Of a stretch of DNA of 28,948 nucleotides, positions 6,327-17,712 are shown one piece after another. The position numbers were made by a program, and so were the translations under genes. The stretch is from a virus. The stretch is taken from the IMG/VR virus record IMGVR_UViG_3300031972_000708, positions 1 through 28,948 of that record; one strand, written 5' to 3'. Position 1 is the first letter of the stretch. Every line of letters begins with the position of its first letter. Below the pieces are notes generated by a model. The model worked only from the letters and a program-made list of their open reading frames with translations, searched no databases and had not been told where the DNA came from.

Positions 6327-6803
6327 ATGGGATTACCCAAACTATTAACTGAACAGCAAAAGAAATTTGCAGAGCTATTGGTATACAATGAGGGACGTAA
6401 GACACCTACTGAATGTGCTAAAGAAGCAGGCTATGCCGAAGGTTCGTGCCATGTGCGCGCGTCTGAGCTGCGCAATCCAAACAAGTTTCCTCTCGTCGTC
6501 AAATACATTGGCGAACTCAGATCAGAAATACAGAAGAAGTATGAGGTTAGCTTTGAACGGCACATCACAGAACTCGGTCGTATACGCCAAGAAGCTCTTG
6601 CAAAGGGAGCTTTCTCGGCAGCTACAAATGCGGAGGTTGCGCGAGGCAAAGCAGCAGGACTATACATCGAGCAGAAAATAATCAGAACAGGTAAGCTAGA
6701 GGACATGTCTATCGAAGACTTGGAAGCTAAGATGAAAAAGATATACCAAGAGAATGAAGTATTGATAAAAGGAGACTATACACTCGTCGATGAGAAAAGC
6801 TAA
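6327..6803 (+). CDS. terS: terminase small subunit
   Basis: This 158-aa protein has the Terminase_2-type N terminus: LTEQQKKFAELLVYNEGRKT, then TECAKEAGY, an HTH that recognises the packaging site, with a helical oligomerisation region after residue 60 and an Ile/Glu-rich C-terminal end (IEDLEAKMKKIYQEN). It should form a ring that binds phage DNA and stimulates the large subunit at 11661-13127. Unusually, the partner gene is 4.9 kb away, behind a minus-strand module. The start has no Shine-Dalgarno sequence but directly follows a promoter-like sequence. Confidence 0.8.
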   Translation: MGLPKLLTEQQKKFAELLVYNEGRKTPTECAKEAGYAEGSCHVRASELRNPNKFPLVVKYIGELRSEIQKKYEVSFERHITELGRIRQEALAKGAFSAATNAEVARGKAAGLYIEQKIIRTGKLEDMSIEDLEAKMKKIYQENEVLIKGDYTLVDEKS

Positions 6804-7327: not shown

Positions 7328-7696
7328 TTGAAAGAAGAATCAAAACTTTGGCAAAAAGTTAAGAAAAATACACCAGGAATTACATGGACACGTGTTGAAT
7401 CTTGGGCATCTTTTGGCTTTCCTGATCTAGTTGGATACACTGTAAAGCATGGCTTTTTTACAGTTGAGCTAAAAGTAACGAAAAGTAATAAAGTTGCCAT
7501 GTCACCACACCAAATAGCGTTCCATGTAACGCATCCCACAAAAACATTTATCTTGGTCCAGCCCCACGGTCAACGATCCGTGATACTTTGTCCAGGGACC
7601 ATGGTCCGTGAGCTTGCGGACTCTGGCTTGAGCGCTTGCACGCTTGCGCCTGTGCCCTTCAGCTCGCTTGAGACCCAATTGCTTGCGCGCTTGTGA
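7328..7696 (+). CDS. VRR-NUC-like PD-(D/E)XK nuclease
   Basis: This 122-aa protein needs a TTG start: an in-frame TAA lies only 9 bases upstream and there is no ATG. Visible motifs are the N-terminal Glu (RVESWASFGFPDLVGY, with the catalytic Asp of PDL), FTVELK (Glu-x-Lys) and MSPHQIAFH, the usual order in VRR-NUC/Holliday-junction-resolvase-like nucleases. It should cleave branched or nicked DNA, for example during replication or packaging. The last 28 codons run into the CTTGCG repeat array, so the native C terminus may be shorter. No clear Shine-Dalgarno sequence. Confidence 0.7.
   Translation: MKEESKLWQKVKKNTPGITWTRVESWASFGFPDLVGYTVKHGFFTVELKVTKSNKVAMSPHQIAFHVTHPTKTFILVQPHGQRSVILCPGTMVRELADSGLSACTLAPVPFSSLETQLLARL
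7596..7607. other. 12-base palindrome GGACCATGGTCC
   Basis: A perfect 12-base palindrome lies at the left edge of repeat array A, within the 3' part of the nuclease gene. A related perfect palindrome, GGACCGCGGTCC, is at 9884-9895 and a 10-base one, GTCCGCGGAC, at 8472-8481. All lie in the GC-rich island. Confidence 0.6.
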
Positions 7697-7703
7697 GCTT
7701 GAG
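7613..7703 (+). repeat. CTTGCG repeat array A
   Basis: Three exact CTTGCG hexamers (7613, 7643, 7682) are mixed with degenerate copies CTTGAG, CTTGCA and CTTGTG. The array covers the 3' end of the VRR-NUC-like gene and runs to 7703, the left boundary of the minus-strand module. It is the most degenerate of five arrays. Confidence 0.65.
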
Positions 7704-7725
7704 GCCTGACTCTTTATAGGGGGAT

Positions 7726-7741
7726 GGGGCCCGAAGGCCCC
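7726..7741. terminator. GGGGCC-CGAA-GGCCCC hairpin between convergent genes
   Basis: A perfect 6-bp GC stem with a CGAA loop (TTCG on the minus strand) sits between the plus-strand nuclease gene and the minus-strand coiled-coil gene. T-runs are weak on both sides (GGTTAGTTATT on plus). The same stem with TTCG loop and a strong T-run terminates the capsid gene at 23353. Probably a bidirectional transcription end. Confidence 0.55.
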
Positions 7742-7747
7742 GGTTAG

Positions 7748-8092
7748 TTATTCGTCGTCTTCTGGATCGAAGTTGATTGGCGTCTCCAGCTGGGACCTGA
7801 GGTCGTCGATGACCTCGCTCTGCCCCTGCATGATGCCTCTCCTGAGCTCTTTGTCTGCCTGCAGCTTCTCCACCTCTTCCTTGTATTCCCGGATAGATGC
7901 GCGGTGCCCTTTCACCAGGATTTCCAGGTCGTTGATCTTTTCGTCGCGCTTCGCTACCATGAGCAGCAGCTTTTCGCTTTTCTCCTGTAGCAGGGTGCGC
8001 TTCGCATCGGCTTCTTTGTAGAGATGCTCCCAGTAATCTGCCCTTGTTCCGGCATCGTGGTCCAGTTGTTTCTCCGCGTGTGGTATTGTCAT
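7748..8092 (-). CDS. coiled-coil protein of the minus-strand module
   Basis: This 114-aa protein has the module's shared leader GAAAGGATA 4-12 bases before its ATG. From about residue 20 to 100 it is almost continuous helix with heptads (EADAKRTLLQEKSEKLLLMV, then RASIREYKEEVEKLQADKEL), and it ends in the acidic tail NFDPEDDE. No transmembrane segment. Codon use is GC-rich, unlike the virion genes (34 of 60 bases G/C at 7861-7920). Probably a small structural or adaptor protein; no family recognised. Last gene of the module, ending just before the hairpin at 7726-7741. Confidence 0.7.
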   Translation of the reverse strand: MTIPHAEKQLDHDAGTRADYWEHLYKEADAKRTLLQEKSEKLLLMVAKRDEKINDLEILVKGHRASIREYKEEVEKLQADKELRRGIMQGQSEVIDDLRSQLETPINFDPEDDE

Positions 8093-8120
8093 AAGTATCC
8101 TTTCTGTTAATTGTTATCAC

Positions 8121-8149
8121 TTTATCCCATATATCAGGTTCAAAGTCAA
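8121..8149 (-). promoter_or_regulatory. minus-strand promoter for the coiled-coil gene
   Basis: On the minus strand TTGACT (8144-8149) and GATAAA (8121-8126) are 17 bases apart, with TATGG directly before the -10, as at 9181-9209 and about 9772-9800. The leader ends in the shared GAAAGGATA block (8096-8104). A perfect DnaA-box sequence and the Irr-like dyad lie just upstream. Confidence 0.55.
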
Positions 8150-8170
8150 CCTTTCTTGTGACCTGGATCC

Positions 8171-8179
8171 TGTGGATAA
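8171..8179 (-). promoter_or_regulatory. DnaA-box-like TTATCCACA
   Basis: The minus strand reads TTATCCACA, a perfect match to the TTATNCACA DnaA-box consensus. It lies between the minus-strand promoter at 8121-8149 and the dyad at 8198-8213. One match to this consensus is expected by chance in a window of this size, so only its setting makes it notable. Confidence 0.35.
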
Positions 8180-8197
8180 CTTTCTTGACTATGCGAC

Positions 8198-8213
8198 TTA
8201 GAATCATTCTAAA
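8198..8213 (-). promoter_or_regulatory. Irr/ICE-like dyad, copy 1
   Basis: The minus strand reads TTTAGAATGATTCTAA; its TTAGAAT-N-ATTCTAA core is a perfect dyad. It closely matches the iron-control element bound by Irr, a Fur-family regulator, in alphaproteobacteria (TTTAGAA-N3-TTCTAAA). It lies 48 bases upstream of the minus-strand -35 at 8144-8149 and directly adjoins repeat array B. A second copy with one change is at 11442-11457. Binding by Irr is inference. Confidence 0.5.
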
Positions 8214-8217
8214 CTGC

Positions 8218-8300
8218 CTTGCGCCCTTGCGTCTCGCTTGCGGCCCTTGCGCGCTTGCGCCCGTACTCACGCATTTGCTTGCGCCTCAGGTCCGCTTGTA
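8218..8300 (+). repeat. CTTGCG repeat array B
   Basis: Six exact CTTGCG hexamers start at 8218, 8226, 8237, 8246, 8254 and 8278, several at 8-base spacing, plus CTTGTA at 8295. The array lies upstream (in minus-strand terms) of the promoter at 8121-8149 and immediately next to the Irr-like dyad. It has the most exact copies of the five arrays and is very GC-rich. Confidence 0.8.
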
Positions 8301-8354
8301 TCCTATTCTTAATCGGGTACGCCCGTGGCGTACCCAGAGGGAAGGTCCGGCCCA

Positions 8355-8513
8355 TTATTGTTTGATCTCTTTTAATTTTACTTTTGTAATACCCAGCATG
8401 CGCAGCTGGCTCTTGCTCAGCGTGCGCCCCTTGTTTATATTCAAGAAGCTTTCAGGGCGCATCAGGTGCCCGTCCGCGGACCGGTATAAGAACGTGTATC
8501 TAGTGTTTGCCAT
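8355..8513 (-). CDS. hypothetical basic 52-aa protein
   Basis: The minus-strand ORF starts at an ATG inside the last codons of the Gp88-like gene (14-base overlap) and ends in TAA at 8355. It reads MANTRYTFLYRSADGHLMRP, then INKGRTLSKSQLRMLGITKVKLKEIKQ. The second half looks like a basic helix. No good ribosome-binding site, so translation is probably coupled to the gene before. It contains the GTCCGCGGAC palindrome. No family recognised. Confidence 0.55.
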   Translation of the reverse strand: MANTRYTFLYRSADGHLMRPESFLNINKGRTLSKSQLRMLGITKVKLKEIKQ

Positions 8514-9105
8514 ATGCTATATTTGGTATTGACTGGTCCCAGCAGGCGCGGCAATCGTTGCACGCGTTCCCCTGATCAGGGGCCGGGCACGTGCGGCCAC
8601 TGGATACAACGGTACTTGTCAGGGCCCAGCTCTTAGGCGCGCTGCCGTCTACCATCGTAGCGCTTAATCTAATCGTTAGATTGCCCGGCACTTCGTCCGG
8701 GTCAATCTTAGAAAGGATCCCAGATTCCCGGGTGGGTATCCAGTGCGCGATGTCAGGCGTAAGCCTGCATACATCGAATATTTTCCTCAAGTGTTCTATT
8801 GTTTGGATGTCGCCACTGTCATGCCATCTAAAATACTTAGACTTGCGGGCGTTAATGTCCGCTGCCATAGTCTCAACCCATCGCGGGTCCTGGATGCTTG
8901 CCAGCCGGCGGTGCATTGCTTCTTTAACGTTTGGAAACCTGTAGCGTCCCTTCAGGGCGTAGCAGCCATGACACACAGAGCCGGGGACCTTGGCAAGCTT
9001 TGCGCCTACCTTGCATTCTGTCGCCGGTAAGTTGTAAGCATAGCCAGGCATCTTAGAGGGCTTGCTTAGCCCCCCAGTGATTATTTTTCTATTCTGCGCG
9101 TTCAT
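8500..9105 (-). CDS. Gp88-like cysteine-rich phage protein
   Basis: This 201-aa protein carries the GAAAGGATA leader. The N-terminal half has KMPGYAYNLPATECK, then VPGSVCHGCYALKG and FRWHDSGDI, followed by HWIPTRE, a pattern I associate with the 'Gene product 88' phage family of unknown function (name from memory). Eight cysteines include C45/C48 and a C-terminal cluster C173, C182, C185, C188, which could bind zinc or an iron-sulfur cluster. GC-rich (40 of 60 bases at 8581-8640). It is transcribed from the promoter at 9181-9209 through a hairpin-bearing leader. Confidence 0.7.
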   Translation of the reverse strand: MNAQNRKIITGGLSKPSKMPGYAYNLPATECKVGAKLAKVPGSVCHGCYALKGRYRFPNVKEAMHRRLASIQDPRWVETMAADINARKSKYFRWHDSGDIQTIEHLRKIFDVCRLTPDIAHWIPTRESGILSKIDPDEVPGNLTIRLSATMVDGSAPKSWALTSTVVSSGRTCPAPDQGNACNDCRACWDQSIPNIAYGKH

Positions 9106-9126
9106 GTATTATCCTTTCTTATTAGC

Positions 9127-9159
9127 GGCGGGCCCGAGTTTCAGACATAAAGGCCCGCC
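9127..9159 (-). promoter_or_regulatory. perfect 8-bp hairpin in the Gp88-like leader
   Basis: GGCGGGCC (9127-9134) pairs with GGCCCGCC (9152-9159) around a 17-base loop, between the promoter at 9181-9209 and the ribosome-binding block at 9110-9118. There is no T-run after it in the minus direction, so it is more likely a leader structure, stabiliser or binding site than a terminator. No other leader of the module has it. Confidence 0.5.
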
Positions 9160-9180
9160 TGTACATTAATGTATTATCAT

Positions 9181-9209
9181 GTTATCCCATACTATTTAAA
9201 TAATGTCAA
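9181..9209 (-). promoter_or_regulatory. minus-strand promoter for the Gp88-like gene
   Basis: TTGACA (9204-9209) and GATAAC (9181-9186) on the minus strand are 17 bases apart, with TATGG before the -10. It is the strongest -35 match of the module and is followed by a 70-base leader. Repeat array C lies 12 bases upstream. Confidence 0.6.
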
Positions 9210-9389
9210 TGTTTTTTTTGCTTGTGCGCTTGCGAGCTTGCGCCTTGCGGCCTCGCGTTGCTTGCGCCTTTGAACCCAGTACGGATGCACTGTACCTATA
9301 ACCCCGGTCCGCGGAGCAGGTGCCCCGGAGCTTTCGCCCCGAAGCATCTTGCTATTGTACCTGGACCGGTTCAATTGGTTGTCTCCCAT
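9192..9389 (-). CDS. possible 65-aa basic protein
   Basis: This ORF overlaps the end of the DUF3846-like gene by 19 bases and has no Shine-Dalgarno sequence, so coupling would be needed. It reads MGDNQLNRSRYNSKMLRG, then APRTGVIGTVHPYWVQRRKQ and a basic tail encoded by repeat array C. The middle looks protein-like, but the tail is repeat-derived and the ORF also covers the promoter at 9181-9209. Could be a spurious frame in GC-rich DNA. Confidence 0.35.
   Translation of the reverse strand: MGDNQLNRSRYNSKMLRGESSGAPAPRTGVIGTVHPYWVQRRKQREAARRKLASAQAKKTLTLFK
9221..9268 (+). repeat. CTTGCG repeat array C
   Basis: Exact copies start at 9229, 9237, 9244 and 9261, with a CTTGTG variant at 9221. Spacings are 8, 7 and 17 bases. 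The array lies directly upstream (minus strand) of the promoter at 9181-9209, separated by an eight-T run. Confidence 0.8.
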
Positions 9390-9742
9390 TGCAGGTCGGG
9401 ATTTTCTTCCACAACCATGGCAACGTCGCCGTTAATGTTGCAATAGTCGCGCCAGTTGTCCATCAGCTGGCCTTCCATACTCTTAAGTTTATTGTATCGC
9501 AGTTGGGATGCTCTCCAGTTGTGCGGCTTATTTGTTAACTTAGCTTCTTCGTCACAGTATAGATCGCAATCAAAGACAATATTGTCTTTGGTGTCGTTCC
9601 ATTTTCCCTGGACTATTTCTATTGTTGATGCATTGATCAGCGGGTAGATAGTCTCGAATGAAACACCGTCTTCACCTTCGATAGTTTGTAGTTTAACTGG
9701 ACCATCTCCAGCAGGTATTATTGCTACTTTAAAGTTTGGCAT
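9371..9742 (-). CDS. DUF3846-like protein
   Basis: This 123-aa protein has the shared GAAAGGATA leader (9747-9755). The order YPLINASTIEIVQG, then VFDCDLYCDEEAKLTNKPHN and finally YCNINGDVAMV matches the layout of DUF3846: a beta start, a central (C)DEEAKL-x-PxN block and a C-terminal GDVxxV. Its molecular function is unknown; such proteins occur in phages and plasmids and are often called anti-restriction-like by neighbourhood only. GC content is lower than for the Gp88-like gene. Confidence 0.65.
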   Translation of the reverse strand: MPNFKVAIIPAGDGPVKLQTIEGEDGVSFETIYPLINASTIEIVQGKWNDTKDNIVFDCDLYCDEEAKLTNKPHNWRASQLRYNKLKSMEGQLMDNWRDYCNINGDVAMVVEENPDLQWETTN

Positions 9743-9771
9743 ATTATATCCTTTCTGTTATTAATTATCAT

Positions 9772-9800
9772 AATGTCCCATATTCATGACACATTGTCAA
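9772..9800 (-). promoter_or_regulatory. minus-strand promoter for the DUF3846-like gene
   Basis: TTGACA (9795-9800) is followed 17 bases later by GACATT (9772-9777), again with TATGG before it. The -10 is weak; TATGAT a few bases further is an alternative at a longer spacing. The leader carries GAAAGGATA. Repeat array D starts 11 bases upstream. Confidence 0.5.
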
Positions 9801-9991
9801 ATAAAAAATGCTTGCGGCCTTGCGACCTTGCGCCCTGGCCTAGGGAATCGCACCCGTCTGTTTATGTCTTTGACACCAGGGCTGGACCGCGGTCCGGAGA
9901 CAAGACAGGGCAGTTGCACTTGTTTACTCTTAGAGCCATATCTTGTCACCGCACCGCGGTTTATACTTGGGCTTACAGATATAACTACCAT
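9797..9991 (-). CDS. doubtful 64-aa reading frame in the 266-base gap
   Basis: The gap 9743-10008 holds a promoter, array D, the GGACCGCGGTCC palindrome and this frame. It starts 17 bases after the stop of the 317-aa gene without a Shine-Dalgarno sequence, and its end is encoded by array D (RKVARPQAFFI). The middle is Pro/Arg/Ser-rich (SGPRSSPGVKDINRRVRFPR). It covers the promoter of the next gene. I consider it more likely non-coding. Confidence 0.25.
   Translation of the reverse strand: MVVISVSPSINRGAVTRYGSKSKQVQLPCLVSGPRSSPGVKDINRRVRFPRPGRKVARPQAFFI
9811..9832 (+). repeat. CTTGCG repeat array D
   Basis: Three tandem octamers of the form CTTGCGNC begin at 9811, 9819 and 9827, giving an exact 8-base period. 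It is the cleanest array. It lies just upstream (minus strand) of the promoter of the DUF3846-like gene. Confidence 0.8.
9884..9895. other. 12-base palindrome GGACCGCGGTCC
   Basis: A perfect palindrome with a SacII-type core lies in the intergenic gap between the 317-aa gene and the DUF3846-like gene. It differs only in the central two bases from the palindrome at 7596-7607. Confidence 0.6.
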
Positions 9992-10008
9992 GCCAAGTAT
10001 TAGAAGTA

Positions 10009-10962
10009 TTAATTTACTAACGCAAATCCTTGCGTTGGCACAACAACTTCAACTTCTTTTGGTTGCTGTTCTCTTGCAGTCTGTCTTACTGCAAGGGAAT
10101 GTTTTAGTCTCTCTTTTGTATCGTCTGATACAATAGACAACTCTCTTGATAGATCACTTGTCTCAAAAGAAACACACTCTTGAACATCTGGCCAATACTC
10201 TTTGACATCAGATAAGAATTTAGCTTGGTCAATAATACTATTCATATCTTTGACTAGCTCGTATTTCATTTGCCACAACTCTCGGTGTGCGTTGGTCAAA
10301 CCACTTTGTGCCTTTGCATACATCTTAAGTTGTTCCCAATGTGTTTCGCCACACATCATTGTACGAGAATGACAGCCACCAGTATTGGGTACGATACGAC
10401 TGAAAGCAGATATGTCATCATTATATTTATCGCCTCTATGATAGCCATGCTTATTCCATAAACCACGATCAAGACCTGCTGATATGGAATTTAAATCTTC
10501 TTCCATAGCTTTTGTTTTTTCGTGGTAGTGAGGGTTGCGATCTCTTTGAGTTTCACAATACTCAACTTCTAGTGTCGCTTGGTGTCCTTTCTCTTGCAAC
10601 TCGAAGTGATACAATGCTCTCATCTCATCATCACTAATAGTCCACTTGTATTGAGCCTCGCTACTATCAGTATGTGATGGCTTAAAATAAAAGCATTGGT
10701 CTACTTCTGTGAAACATCTGTAAGAACCACTATTCCTATCGTACTTGGCTAATATGTGCATATCCTCTAGTGGAAACTTATCGTCCATTAGTGGGGTGAT
10801 TACATTATCCCAAGTTTGTTGTTTTACTGTTCTGTAATTTTCTATGGCAAGTTTTAGATTGTCCTCAACTTCCATAGGTGTCTTATTCCAAACAGTCGAA
10901 GCCCACTCTCTTTTGAGTAGCTGTCGCTTCTGTTGGTTTAGTCTTAGTTTATTAGCTTCCAT
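10009..10962 (-). CDS. unknown 317-aa protein of the minus-strand module
   Basis: The ATG is preceded by the shared GAAAGGATA block (10967-10975) and begins 3 bases after the upstream stop, so it is co-transcribed with the zinc-finger gene. The protein is soluble, with a basic N terminus (RLNQQKRQLLKREW), a central His/Cys-containing part (NTGGCHSRTMMCGETHWEQL) and long helices at 220-300. I recognise no catalytic motif or family. Base composition is intermediate (27 of 60 G/C at 10561-10620), unlike the GC-rich left part of the module. Largest unexplained gene of the module. Confidence 0.7.
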   Translation of the reverse strand: MEANKLRLNQQKRQLLKREWASTVWNKTPMEVEDNLKLAIENYRTVKQQTWDNVITPLMDDKFPLEDMHILAKYDRNSGSYRCFTEVDQCFYFKPSHTDSSEAQYKWTISDDEMRALYHFELQEKGHQATLEVEYCETQRDRNPHYHEKTKAMEEDLNSISAGLDRGLWNKHGYHRGDKYNDDISAFSRIVPNTGGCHSRTMMCGETHWEQLKMYAKAQSGLTNAHRELWQMKYELVKDMNSIIDQAKFLSDVKEYWPDVQECVSFETSDLSRELSIVSDDTKERLKHSLAVRQTAREQQPKEVEVVVPTQGFALVN

Positions 10963-10965
10963 AAA

Positions 10966-11220
10966 TTATCCTTTCTCTTGGTTGCTAGTTTCTTCTATCA
11001 CATTATGTGATATGTTGTCAACTAAATTTGAGAACTCTCTCGAGTATCTTGCAATCCACTCTTTCATACAGCTTTGTGAATGAAAGTGCTTGTGGCTTGG
11101 CTCCACTTCATATCGTGTTGGATAATCTGTGTAAGAATAATCATCTTGAGGGTATGCTGAGTATGACTTGGGGTAAAACTTCTTACCACAAGTCACACAG
11201 TATCTAGCTGACTTACTCAT
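10966..11220 (-). CDS. small zinc-finger-like protein
   Basis: The best start is the ATG at 11220, which overlaps the upstream stop (GATGAGTAA) and has AAGGAAG before it; a longer form starting at 11301 would overlap the 48-aa gene almost completely. The 84-aa product has CVTCGKKF near its N terminus (Cys8, Cys11) and, 40 residues later, HKHFHSQSC, which together could bind zinc. The middle is Tyr/Asp-rich (SAYPQDDYSYTDYPTRYE). Possibly a DNA- or protein-binding adaptor. Third position in the rightmost minus operon is the 317-aa gene. Confidence 0.6.
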   Translation of the reverse strand: MSKSARYCVTCGKKFYPKSYSAYPQDDYSYTDYPTRYEVEPSHKHFHSQSCMKEWIARYSREFSNLVDNISHNVIEETSNQEKG

Positions 11221-11359
11221 CTTCCTTATAACACAAGTTGCTTTGCACTTGCTCATAGTAGTCAAGATATTGTTGACCATGCTCTTGTATAAATTCTCCA
11301 AGTGTCATGATTTCTGCGTCTTGTACAATCTTATGATGATTAATTAATTGTTCGTTCAT
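11213..11359 (-). CDS. hypothetical 48-aa protein, first gene of the right minus operon
   Basis: The ATG at 11359 follows the shared GAAAGGATA block (11364-11372), which decides the start. The protein reads MNEQLINHHKIVQDAEIMTL, then GEFIQEHGQQYLDYYEQVQS and ends NLCYKEDE; it looks helical, with an acidic-aromatic second half. It overlaps the zinc-finger gene by 8 bases, so translation is probably coupled. No family recognised. Confidence 0.6.
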   Translation of the reverse strand: MNEQLINHHKIVQDAEIMTLGEFIQEHGQQYLDYYEQVQSNLCYKEDE

Positions 11360-11376
11360 ATATTATCCTTTCTATT

Positions 11377-11416
11377 ATTATCCCACAATATTGTAGTATT
11401 TGTAAAAACCTGTCAA
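11377..11416 (-). promoter_or_regulatory. minus-strand promoter for the right operon
   Basis: On the minus strand GATAAT (11377-11382) is preceded 18 bases upstream by TTTACA (11401-11406); a perfect TTGACA lies at 11411-11416, 28 bases from GATAAT, and could instead pair with CAATAT at 17 bases. The -10 is preceded by TGTGG, related to the TATGG of the other promoters. Confidence 0.5.
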
Positions 11417-11441
11417 CACTTATTATAATTATCTTTGCAAC

Positions 11442-11457
11442 TTAGACTCATTCTAAA
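11442..11457 (-). promoter_or_regulatory. Irr/ICE-like dyad, copy 2
   Basis: The minus strand reads TTTAGAATGAGTCTAA, one base different from copy 1 at 8198-8213. Similarity extends beyond the dyad: CATTCTAAACTGC on the plus strand is shared exactly, and TxTGCxAC precedes both. It lies 25 bases upstream of TTGACA at 11411-11416. Confidence 0.5.
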
Positions 11458-11465
11458 CTGCGCCC

Positions 11466-11520
11466 CTTGCGCGTTCGCTGCATTTTAGGGGACCCTTGCG
11501 CATTTGCTGCCAAACTTGCG
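11466..11520 (+). repeat. CTTGCG repeat array E
   Basis: Exact copies start at 11466, 11495 and 11515, in GC-rich DNA with related TTCGCTGC and TTTGCTGC words. As at array B, the array follows directly after the dyad repeat and its CTAAACTGC flank. Confidence 0.65.
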
Positions 11521-11634
11521 ACCCTACCCCCGTACCCCGGATTTTGTATAACAGGGGTCCCAATGCCAGCACTATATGCTTGATCTGCAAATAGATATGG
11601 TCTAAAATCGTTTTCACTCTAAAAAGTAAAGGTG

Positions 11635-11660: not shown

Positions 11661-13127
11661 ATGCTAACCCCTGATCAATTAAAAAACTTACCTGAAGATA
11701 CACGCAAAGAATATTTGCAAACATTATTGTTGCTTGATGAAAAGAAAAAAGAACAAGCAATCAAAGATGACTTTCTTGCTTTTGTAAAACACATGTGGCC
11801 AGATTTTATTGAAGGTGAACACCATAAGATAATGGCTGAGAAGTTTAACCGCGTTGCGCGAGGCGAGCTCAAGCGATTAATTATCAATATGGCACCAAGA
11901 CATACAAAATCAGAATTTGCATCTAACTTCTTGCCTGCATGGATGATCGGTAACAAACCTGATCTAAAAATAATCCAAGCAACAAACAACGCGGAACTTG
12001 CAGTACGATTTGGTCGTAAAGCAAAAACGTTAATGGAGCAGGATGACTTTAAAAAAATATTTAATACAAGACTAAGAGAAGATTCTAAAGCTGCAGGTAA
12101 ATGGGAAACGGATCAGGGCGGCGAATATTATGCAGCGGGTGTTGGCGGAAGTATCACGGGCCGTGGAGCGGATTTATTGATTATTGATGACCCGCATTCG
12201 GAACAGGACGCAATGAACATGGCCAGTTACGATCGAGTGTATGAGTGGTATACTTCTGGACCGCGGCAGCGTTTGCAACCTGGAGGCAGGATAATTGTGG
12301 TGATGACTCGTTGGAATGTTGCTGACCTAACTGGTAAATTGATGAAAGCACAAGCAGAACCAAAAGCAGATCAATGGGAAGTGATAGAATTCCCAGCCAT
12401 ACTTCCCAGCGGGAAACCGGTTTGGCCTGGTTATTGGAAGCTCGAAGAACTGGAAGCGGTAAAAGCATCCGTAAGTATACTAAAATGGAATGCACAATAC
12501 CAACAAAATCCGACAGCAGCTGAAGGTAGTATTATAAAACGTGAATGGTGGAACGTGTGGGAGAAAGAAGAATTACCACCACTGCAACATGTTATACAAA
12601 GTTATGATACAGCGTTTATGAAAAAAGAAACTGCTGACTATTCTGCTATTACAACATGGGGCGTATTTACACCAGACGAGGACAGCGGACCGCAGTTAAT
12701 ACTAATTGACATGGTAAAAGACAGATTTGAGTTTCCAGAACTGCGTAGAATAGCAAAAGAACAATACGACTATTGGAAGCCAGAAACGGTGATTGTGGAG
12801 GCAAAAGCATCAGGTTTGCCATTAACCTATGAATTACGTAAACTTGGCATACCAGTTATTAACTTTACACCTAGCAAGGGAAATGATAAACATACTAGAA
12901 TAAACTCGGTTGCACCTTTATTTGAATCTGGTATGATTTGGGCACCAGAAAAAAAATGGGCAGAAGAGGTAATTGAGGAATGCGCTGCATTCCCGCTAGG
13001 CGAACACGATGACTTAGTGGATAGCATGACTCAAGCAGTAATGAGATTTAGACAAGGTGGTTTTGTAGAACATCCCGACGATTACGAAGATGAGCCTTTA
13101 CCACAACAACAAAGGACGTACTATTAA
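11661..13127 (+). CDS. terL: terminase large subunit
   Basis: This 488-aa protein is the ATPase/nuclease of the packaging motor. Residues 78-84 (APRHTKS) are the Walker A-like motif with adenine-proximal residues just before, LLIIDD at 172-177 is Walker B, and VMTRWN at 214-219 is the coupling motif. The C-terminal RNase H-like nuclease shows SYDTA with Asp316, IVEAKASG with Glu380 and HDDLVDS with Asp450, Asp451 and Asp454. Full length for the Terminase_6 type. It packages DNA through the portal at 15193. No Shine-Dalgarno sequence precedes the start. Its stop overlaps the next ATG (TAATG). Confidence 0.95.
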   Translation: MLTPDQLKNLPEDTRKEYLQTLLLLDEKKKEQAIKDDFLAFVKHMWPDFIEGEHHKIMAEKFNRVARGELKRLIINMAPRHTKSEFASNFLPAWMIGNKPDLKIIQATNNAELAVRFGRKAKTLMEQDDFKKIFNTRLREDSKAAGKWETDQGGEYYAAGVGGSITGRGADLLIIDDPHSEQDAMNMASYDRVYEWYTSGPRQRLQPGGRIIVVMTRWNVADLTGKLMKAQAEPKADQWEVIEFPAILPSGKPVWPGYWKLEELEAVKASVSILKWNAQYQQNPTAAEGSIIKREWWNVWEKEELPPLQHVIQSYDTAFMKKETADYSAITTWGVFTPDEDSGPQLILIDMVKDRFEFPELRRIAKEQYDYWKPETVIVEAKASGLPLTYELRKLGIPVINFTPSKGNDKHTRINSVAPLFESGMIWAPEKKWAEEVIEECAAFPLGEHDDLVDSMTQAVMRFRQGGFVEHPDDYEDEPLPQQQRTYY

Positions 13128-15193: not shown

Positions 15194-17712
15194 TGGCTAT
15201 AGATAAAGCACTAGAAAACCAACTCAAAGTTCCACAAACAGTCTACGACGAAGAAGTAGAACTAATGGCAGAACAACCACAAGAATTTCAAGAGGGTGGT
15301 GAAGTTGATGTAGAAATGACTGAAGATGGTGGAGCAGAAATAAATTTTGATCCTGCTGCAGAAATGATGACAGGCGCACAAGAGCACGATGCTAACTTAG
15401 CAGATTATTTAGACGAAGGAGTGTTAACTGAAATTGCAGCTGACCTAGAAGAAAATTATGATGAGTATAAAAGCTCAAGAGCAGACTGGGAAGATGCGTA
15501 CACAAAAGGTTTAGACCTGTTAGGTTTTAAATACGAAAACAGATCAGAACCATTCCAAGGTGCATCGGGTGCAACACACCCTGTACTAGCAGAAGCAGTT
15601 ACACAATTTCAATCACTAGCATACAAAGAATTATTACCTGCAGACGGACCTGTAAGAACAAAAGTTGTAGGCATGATAAACGCCGACAGACAAAGACAAG
15701 CAGACAGAGTTAGAGATTACATGAACTATCAAATCATGTGCGAGATGAAAGAGTACGAGCCAGAGTTTGATCAAATGTTATTTAACTTACCGTTGTCAGG
15801 TTCTACATTTAAAAAAGTTTATTACGATGCATCTCTTGGACGTTGTGTGTCTAAGTTTGTACCTGCAGAAGATTTAGTTGTACCATACAACGCAACTTCA
15901 CTAGAAGACGCAGAAGTTATTATTCACACAATTAAAATGTCAGGTAACGAATTGCGTAGACAGCAGTTAGCAGGTTTTTATAAAGACGTTGACATTGGCG
16001 AAGGATCACTGTCAGACACTGGTGATGTAAAAGATACAAAAGATAAAATAGAAGGAACATCAAGAGGCAACAACGAAGAAGTACACACTCTGTTAGAATG
16101 TCACCTTAATTTAGATCTTGAAGGGTTTGAGGACATGAACCCACAGACTGGAGAACCAACAGGACTAAAACTTCCGTACATCGTAACGATTGACGAAGAG
16201 ACAAGCACTGTTCTTGCAGTCAGAAGAAATTTTGAACAAAACAACCCGTCAAAAAGACGTAAAGAATATTTTGTTCATTTCAAATTCCTACCAGGACTCG
16301 GATTTTACGGGTTCGGCCTAATACACATGATAGGCGGTCTATCAAGAACCGCTACAGCTGCGCTAAGACAACTCTTAGACGCCGGCACCTTGTCAAATCT
16401 ACCGGCCGGATTTAAAATGCGAGGCATCCGCGTTAGAGACGAAGCTCAACCGTTGCAGCCGGGAGAGTTCCGTGACGTAGATGCACCTGGTGGAAACCTA
16501 AAAGATGCATTTATGCCGTTACCATTTAACGGTCCTAACCAAACACTATTGTCACTACTAAGTACAGTTGTACAATCCGGTCAGCGGTTCGCGAGCATCG
16601 CTGATATGCAAGTGGGCGACGGCAACCAATCGGCAGCCGTGGGCACTACAGTTGCGCTCTTGGAGCGTGGATCGCGGGTTATGTCAGCTATACACAAGCG
16701 TTTATACGCATCAATGAAAAACGAATTTATGCTTTTGGCTAATTGTTTTGTAACTTACCTGCCACCAGCATACCCATACGACATTGTAGGTGGTAGAAGA
16801 GAGATTTTTGCAGCTGATTTTGACCAAAGAGTCGATATTATACCGATTGCAGACCCAAATATCTTTTCACAGACGCAAAGAATCAGTATTGCGCAATCAG
16901 AATTACAATTAGCACAGTCAAATCCTAAAATGCACAACATTTATCATGCATACAGACACATGTATGAGGCATTAGGGGTCAAAGATATTGATGTTTTACT
17001 ACCACCACCGACTCCACCGCAACCTTTAGACCCTGCAACGGAGAATATTATGGCTTTAGGTGGTAAAAAGTTCCAAGCATTTCCAAAACAAGACCATCAA
17101 GCACACATGAAGTCGCATTTACAGTTTATGGGTACACTTGTGGTTAGAAATAACCCAGCCGCACTTACTGCACTGCAAACAAACTGCATGCAACACATAC
17201 AATTGATGGCACAAGAGCAAATTGAGATGGAATTTGCAGAAGAAATACAAAAAATGCAGATGTTGCAGCAACAGTTACAACAGTTACAACAACAAATGCA
17301 ACAAGACCCACAGGCTATGCAACAGATGCAGCAAAATCCACAAATGATGGAAATACAGAAAACTATGCAAGAAGAAACGCAGAAAATGGAAGCTAGAAAA
17401 GCTGTTTTGATTTCTGAGTTTATGGCTGAGTATGCAGTGGCTGAAAAAGAAGTCTTGAATACTATTGAAAATGATCCATTATTGAAACTTAAGGACAGAG
17501 AGTTAGATTTAAAAGCTCGTGAAAACCAACGTAAAGAAGAAGAGGATGAAAACAAATTAAATCTAGAACGAGCTAAAATGTTACAAAACAGAGAGCTTGC
17601 AGAAGAAAAAATGGAACAAAATGACGACCATCAGAAACTTAGGGCTAGTGTATCACTAGCAAAAGATGGTATAAAGAATATGCAAGCGACAATTAAGTCA
17701 GGGGAATTTTAA
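15193..17712 (+). CDS. portal protein, P22-like
   Basis: This 839-aa protein has TAGGAGAAAATA before its ATG. After an acidic N-terminal extension (EFQEGGEVDVEMTEDGG) it shows LADYLDEGVLTEIAADLEEN, then RADWEDAYTKGLDLLGFKYE and FQGASGATHPVLAEAV, typical of the large portal proteins of P22-type podoviruses. It should form the dodecameric ring that docks terminase and connector. Residues about 675-740 are Gln/Met-rich low complexity (MLQQQLQQLQQQMQQ), followed by a long coiled coil to the C terminus, matching the barrel found in long P22-type portals. Confidence 0.9.
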   Translation: MAIDKALENQLKVPQTVYDEEVELMAEQPQEFQEGGEVDVEMTEDGGAEINFDPAAEMMTGAQEHDANLADYLDEGVLTEIAADLEENYDEYKSSRADWEDAYTKGLDLLGFKYENRSEPFQGASGATHPVLAEAVTQFQSLAYKELLPADGPVRTKVVGMINADRQRQADRVRDYMNYQIMCEMKEYEPEFDQMLFNLPLSGSTFKKVYYDASLGRCVSKFVPAEDLVVPYNATSLEDAEVIIHTIKMSGNELRRQQLAGFYKDVDIGEGSLSDTGDVKDTKDKIEGTSRGNNEEVHTLLECHLNLDLEGFEDMNPQTGEPTGLKLPYIVTIDEETSTVLAVRRNFEQNNPSKRRKEYFVHFKFLPGLGFYGFGLIHMIGGLSRTATAALRQLLDAGTLSNLPAGFKMRGIRVRDEAQPLQPGEFRDVDAPGGNLKDAFMPLPFNGPNQTLLSLLSTVVQSGQRFASIADMQVGDGNQSAAVGTTVALLERGSRVMSAIHKRLYASMKNEFMLLANCFVTYLPPAYPYDIVGGRREIFAADFDQRVDIIPIADPNIFSQTQRISIAQSELQLAQSNPKMHNIYHAYRHMYEALGVKDIDVLLPPPTPPQPLDPATENIMALGGKKFQAFPKQDHQAHMKSHLQFMGTLVVRNNPAALTALQTNCMQHIQLMAQEQIEMEFAEEIQKMQMLQQQLQQLQQQMQQDPQAMQQMQQNPQMMEIQKTMQEETQKMEARKAVLISEFMAEYAVAEKEVLNTIENDPLLKLKDRELDLKARENQRKEEEDENKLNLERAKMLQNRELAEEKMEQNDDHQKLRASVSLAKDGIKNMQATIKSGEF

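Follow-up and report, generated by a model that had tools for sequence, protein, structure and literature searches.

We analysed a viral stretch of 28,948 nucleotides (IMG/VR record IMGVR_UViG_3300031972_000708, positions 1-28,948; hereafter the window), in which a gene module on the minus strand (7748-11617) is interspersed with arrays of a short directly repeated word. These arrays may be tandem sites for a multimeric DNA-binding protein. The word reads CTTGCG on the plus strand and CGCAAG in the direction of the module genes; read that way, the unit is CAAG(C) and the octamer of the window CAAG(C/G)NNN. The module is flanked by terS (6327-6803, plus strand; phrog_51) and terL (11661-13127, plus strand), whose product has 71% identity to TerL of Pelagibacter phage HTVC027P. 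The minus-strand genes include a 317-aa gene without family match (10009-10962), a DUF3846-like gene of 123 aa (9371-9742; E 4e-4, under the Pfam cut-off), a GP88-family gene (8500-9105; PF17338, E 5e-31), which is the constant member of the module, and a 114-aa gene (7748-8092), which has no convincing family match and reads as a coiled coil. A VRR-NUC-like gene (7328-7696, plus strand) is convergent to the module.

The sequence-only reading had placed the CTTGCG words in five clusters, and counting them over the whole window bore this out: 19 of the 21 copies on the plus strand lie inside the clusters, the remaining two (8842 and 10029) are also within the module, and none occurs outside it. 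All eight plus-strand copies of CGCAAG are located outside the module. For the region 7600-11540, the 21 copies of CTTGCG compare with 1.45 expected and with a maximum of 6 across 1000 dinucleotide shuffles; CGCAAG is absent from it, in agreement with the uniform orientation to transcription that had been claimed. Neighbouring CTTGCG pairs 7-8 nt apart occur six times in this region (0.002 expected) and 8-nt spacings of CTTG ten times (0.18 expected). The proposed 8-base period holds for clusters A-D and fails for cluster E. Array A (7613-7703, minus strand; CTTG spacings of 14, 8, 8, 24, 15, 8 and 8) is a degenerate 8-nt array at the 3' end of the module, where it extends into the end of the convergent gene. 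Array B (8218-8300, minus; CAAG spacings of 8, 11, 9, 8, 24 and 17 nt) traverses the end of a small open reading frame (ORF; 8355-8209, minus). Array C (9221-9268, minus) has CAAG spacings of 8, 8, 7 and 17 nt, and array D (9811-9832, minus) does consist of three tandem octamers. Cluster E (11466-11520, minus) contains three CGCAAG words, at 11466, 11495 and 11515, which are dense and aperiodic (spacings of 29 and 20).

Promoters were inferred from consensus, in the window as well as in relatives. Arrays B-E had been described as lying directly upstream of four minus-strand promoters. This is accurate for arrays C and D, which end about 11 and 10 bp, respectively, from the -35 boxes of the GP88 gene (TTGACA .. 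GGATAA, 9182-9209, minus; -35 at 9209) and of the DUF3846-like gene (TTGACA-N17-GACATT, 9772-9800, minus; -35 at 9800). It is not for the other two: the promoter that serves the 114-aa gene (TTGACT-N17-GATAAA, 8121-8149, minus) has array B about 70 bp upstream, and the module's first promoter (TTGACA .. TACAAT/CAATAT, 11388-11416, minus) has cluster E about 50 bp upstream, in each case with the palindrome TTTAGAATGA(T/G)TCTAA in between. The tie between arrays and promoters is incomplete in the window: array A has no promoter behind it, and TTGACA at 11021, a minus-strand promoter-like site within a gene, has no array. The relatives L049 and L050 have no array at the position of cluster E.

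Loci of relatives were fetched via two module proteins and via sequence patterns. They are mostly metagenomic fragments, counts from the pattern-fetched loci are lower bounds, and counts are not independent by phylogeny, except where stated. In the protein-fetched loci, successive CAAG words are spaced by 7 nt in 995 cases and by 8 nt in 213 cases, compared to about 11-16 in a crude shuffle. At least 631 distinct arrays in 228 stretches have the common unit CAAGCNN, with NN nearly uniform; some genomes use an 8-nt period, as the window does, and others one of 7 nt. Of 1569 units flanked by two exact cores, 89% read exactly CAAGC, and neighbouring units have identical NN at a frequency of 0.070 (0.074 expected). 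Because the core is kept to this extent, while the spacer is nearly uniform and uncorrelated between neighbours, five positions of the unit are held and two are free. Synonymous changes of the core are nearly absent: CAAGT was found once among the 1569 cases and CAAAC (AAG to AAA) never, and the constraint therefore acts on nucleotides. An operator of the omega/parS heptad type would likewise consist of contiguous repeats in which unit length and core are constant. The neighbour identity of the spacers is not that of slippage repeats, for which CAAGCNN tandem repeats in bacterial chromosomes, with a value of 0.756, provide the contrast.

In these phages, which are related to those of SAR11, arrays occur nowhere but in a single gene module, that of GP88, which lies between terS and terL. 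Records that are complete or nearly so (HTVC027P, G001, G002 and others) have all of their arrays in one short region. The heptad pattern alone retrieved at least 120 loci; in 89 of the 120 listed, the stretch obtained includes a homologue of GP88, and several of the remaining listed ones resemble fragments of the GP88 module. Roseobacter and Caulobacter phages have GP88 loci too, without a comparable periodic core. Apart from the type of TerS, no single gene stood out clearly as exclusive to phages with arrays. The predicted structure of GP88 (mean confidence 68) has no significant fold match, and family searches of the module genes recognised no replication initiator. We found no description of CAAGC arrays in the open-access literature, a search of limited scope and weak evidence of novelty. 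In 023Pt_psg01 (L155) a G-rich element, GGGTGGGCCC, is present at 15431, 16244, 17001, 17784 and 17839; it is also found in L104 and L058, occupies the usual array positions and substitutes for the arrays in 023Pt and L133.

Orientation is uniform in the relatives as well: 294 arrays of at least three units are co-directional with the module genes and 9 are opposite, all nine representing one conserved coding stretch. Arrays of the same genome share their period in 98.3% of pairs, compared to 76.8% after permutation. The period has changed seven times on a tree of 141 GP88 proteins, and at least five of these changes are forced by well-supported branches. At array B, L071 and the window have everything from the palindrome to the -10 box in common, yet the array has a 7-nt period in L071 and an 8-nt period in the window. 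The longest common substring of arrays is 12.3 within a genome and 11.5 between genomes; since the former barely exceeds the latter, the arrays are not recent copies of one another. Mobile repeats that carry promoters, one of the options in the sequence-only reading, do not agree with this value or with a period that changes beside an unchanged promoter.

Two classes of arrays can be distinguished in the relatives, those between genes, which precede promoters, and those at the module end. A recognisable -35/-10 pair follows 81 of the roughly 390 array clusters, while 144 face the convergent VRR-NUC-like gene where the module ends, so that the tie to promoters is incomplete here too. The module-end arrays are the longest class (median 13 CAAG). 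Arrays abut -35 boxes in many relatives: 181 lie within 26 nt of TTGAC[AT], 70 of them directly abutting as CAAGC|TTGACA. In arrays without a downstream TTGAC[AT], which are mostly module-end arrays, the spacers recur every 21 nt, corresponding to three units or seven codons (z=9.0); this recurrence was not seen in promoter-type arrays (z=-1.2). The spacer bases of 17 non-redundant module-end ORFs with an F[KR]HPKYY start depend on codon phase (p=0.0005). The 21-nt recurrence and the phase dependence show that module-end arrays are translated, as KxQAxSx tails. Several unrelated small ORFs terminate in such array-encoded tails, and units of 7 and 8 nt give the same tail in every frame, without stop codons.

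Further elements are located near the arrays and promoters. The palindromes of the window (TTTAGAATGATTCTAA, 8198-8213, upstream of the 114-aa gene, and TTTAGAATGAGTCTAA, 11442-11457, at the first promoter; both minus strand) resemble a Fur-family/Irr (ICE) box. The relatives contain 71 copies of this palindrome, 50 of which lie within 130 nt upstream of TTGAC. It is absent from HTVC027P, and infection with this phage upregulates host irr (PMC12753301). The sequence TTATCCACA (8171-8179, minus) is identical to the consensus DnaA box; 33 distinct sense copies were found near module promoters in relatives, L058 among them, and none in HTVC027P. A perfect hairpin (GGGGCC-TTCG-GGCCCC, 7726-7741, minus) is located 3' of the last module gene, and the GP88 gene has a GC-rich hairpin (9127-9159, minus) in its 5' leader, immediately ahead of the ribosome-binding site.

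Expression data are available for the cultured relative HTVC027P, in which all arrays are found within 16.5-17.7 kb, upstream of gp33 (GP88) and gp34 and inside gp32. The arrays upstream of gp34 and gp33 end in CAAGCTTGACA. A published time course of infection assigns gp33 and gp34, and no other genes, to an extra expression cluster that peaks at 6-9 hours post infection, a grouping that its authors made without reference to the arrays (PMC12753301). The link between arrays and expression is a correlation resting on two genes. The phage encodes no RNA polymerase, and its early genes are all of unknown function (PMC12753301). Upstream of gp34, an unannotated stretch of the HTVC027P locus (L153, 17740-18200) has apparent hairpins and is possibly a structured RNA; it is preceded by a promoter-like site, TTGACA-N17-TATATA.

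A strict step, a constrained core and a free spacer are what would be expected of a multimeric protein binding along nucleic acid. We therefore favour, at a probability of roughly 0.4, the reading that the arrays are tandem sites in double-stranded DNA for a candidate multimeric regulator. Judging from the sequence patterns, the reader is probably a protein, its target probably DNA rather than RNA, and its function probably the regulation of transcription. A small DNA-binding protein would recognise the CAAGC cores, one subunit or dimer per core, and would assemble cooperatively along the array in a fixed step of 7 or 8 bp. Between genes, the resulting filament would control the promoter that follows, in the simplest case by covering it, and the GP88 module would be a set of separate units of promoter, gene and array, each with a timing of its own. 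At the module end, the long array might act as an anchor, a boundary or a roadblock. Iterons for a regulator, as suggested in the sequence-only reading, fit the core, the strict spacing, the free spacer, the single period per genome and the orientation. Several observations weigh against a tandem operator: the longest arrays, at the module end, have no promoter behind them; the distance from array to -35 box varies (5, 7, 8, 14-19); an omega-like protein does not need a fixed array orientation; and gp32, immediately behind gp33, is outside the extra expression cluster. In addition, a Pfam scan of 52 HTVC027P proteins, most of them small or uncharacterised, revealed no ribbon-helix-helix (RHH) protein, the class to which omega belongs, or other regulator among 25 of 48 families listed.

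Comparable systems are known from bacteria and their plasmids. The RHH protein MetJ binds met boxes, tandem 8-bp operators at promoters that are palindromic and serve metabolic control; the phage arrays share the tandem 8-bp promoter units, but the core is unrelated. The heptamers recognised by SARP regulators are spaced by about one helical turn. SARP regulators of Streptomyces are reported to require heptameric direct repeats at promoters for binding (PMC5930380); such repeats are shared with the phage arrays, whereas spacing, sequence and organisms differ. The RHH protein omega (ParB) of pSM19035 binds unspaced 7-bp repeats, WATCACW, that overlap promoters, and its parS sites resemble the arrays in the unspaced 7-bp units with about five fixed bases, the many units, the promoter overlap and the several arrays per replicon (PMC9499535). 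In contrast to the phage arrays, the omega heptads have a different core and occur in both orientations; the phage unit is 7 or 8 nt depending on the genome, some of its arrays are translated, and a lytic phage has no known need for partition. Together, omega (7 bp) and MetJ (8 bp) match the two step sizes of the arrays.

The arrays could instead act as RNA: a multimeric RNA-binding protein would occupy the sense CAAGC repeats at gene 3' ends of the transcript, or the repeats would function in termination or mRNA stability. The arrays are always sense to the module genes and sit behind genes, also where no promoter follows the array, and spacers of 2 or 3 nt would suit a ring-shaped binder of the TRAP type, which reads a short core followed by 2-3 free nucleotides. 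However, translation of the module-end arrays would strip bound proteins, an RNA element does not need the contact with -35 boxes seen in many arrays, and no Rfam family was matched at gathering score (one chance match, E 3.2). We regard a role in RNA as rather doubtful.

The location of the module between terS and terL raises a different option, in which the arrays are TerS-binding sites of the pac/cos type and their orientation reflects the direction of packaging. The pac sites of SPP1 and SF6 are likewise direct repeats near terminase genes, bound by a multimeric helix-turn-helix (HTH) ring of TerS, but the phage arrays have many units at a fixed step of 7 or 8 and occur several times. The array-free GP88 phages 023Pt and L133 have a different TerS (34-38% identity; TerL of 023Pt 74%), and in the clade of the window the period switch coincides with a change in the HTH region of TerS (6327-6803 in the window; N-terminus 11% different, C-terminus 0%, compared with L079, L071 and L062). 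In the wider clade, N-terminal TerS distance is not associated with the period (p=0.4), and identical HTH regions occur with both periods. Array presence follows the TerS type and period does not; the idea that TerS sets the period is striking among the closest relatives and unsupported overall. Several arrays over about 3 kb are also unusual for pac, and in SF6 TerS is largely sequence-independent and repeats had little role (PMC4737164). A packaging function is unlikely.

It is quite improbable that the arrays serve only as coding sequence for the basic KxQAxSx tails of small proteins. The tails on unrelated ORFs, the codon-phase dependence and the 21-nt recurrence speak for such a purpose, but promoter-type arrays lack the 21-nt signal, and a nucleotide-level function is primary because the cores do not tolerate synonymous change. 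Functionless repeats made by mobility or slippage are very improbable: the same heptad does form simple tandem repeats in bacterial chromosomes, but those have near-identical units, often an inverted mate, and both orientations, whereas the phage arrays combine an intact core with a free spacer, lack a slippage signature and have no sequence beyond the core common to one genome's copies, which refutes this origin for most arrays. An origin of the arrays in the host was considered and rejected: a scan of bacterial chromosomes found the heptad mainly as slippage-type repeats in other bacteria, with no SAR11 genome among the matches listed. On the bacterial contigs (L279-L358) about one quarter of these repeats have an inverted mate within 250 nt, and they are more frequent between convergent than between divergent genes.

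Possibly, though this is tentative, the arrays represent a new nucleic-acid code, in which a 5-nt core recurs every 7 or 8 nt depending on the genome, runs in the direction of the genes and is free of stop codons in all three frames. The array would be both a putative protein-binding site and a translated gene-end tail, and its reader would be a candidate multimeric protein that switches its step between close relatives. SAR11 are the commonest bacteria of the ocean and their phages are among the most abundant biological entities, while the timing of their genes is little known. As tandem operators, the arrays would mark a regulon and could serve as bait for its regulator in a cultured phage-host pair, and the genomes with 7- and 8-bp arrays would constitute a natural experiment on a step change in a tandem DNA-binding protein.

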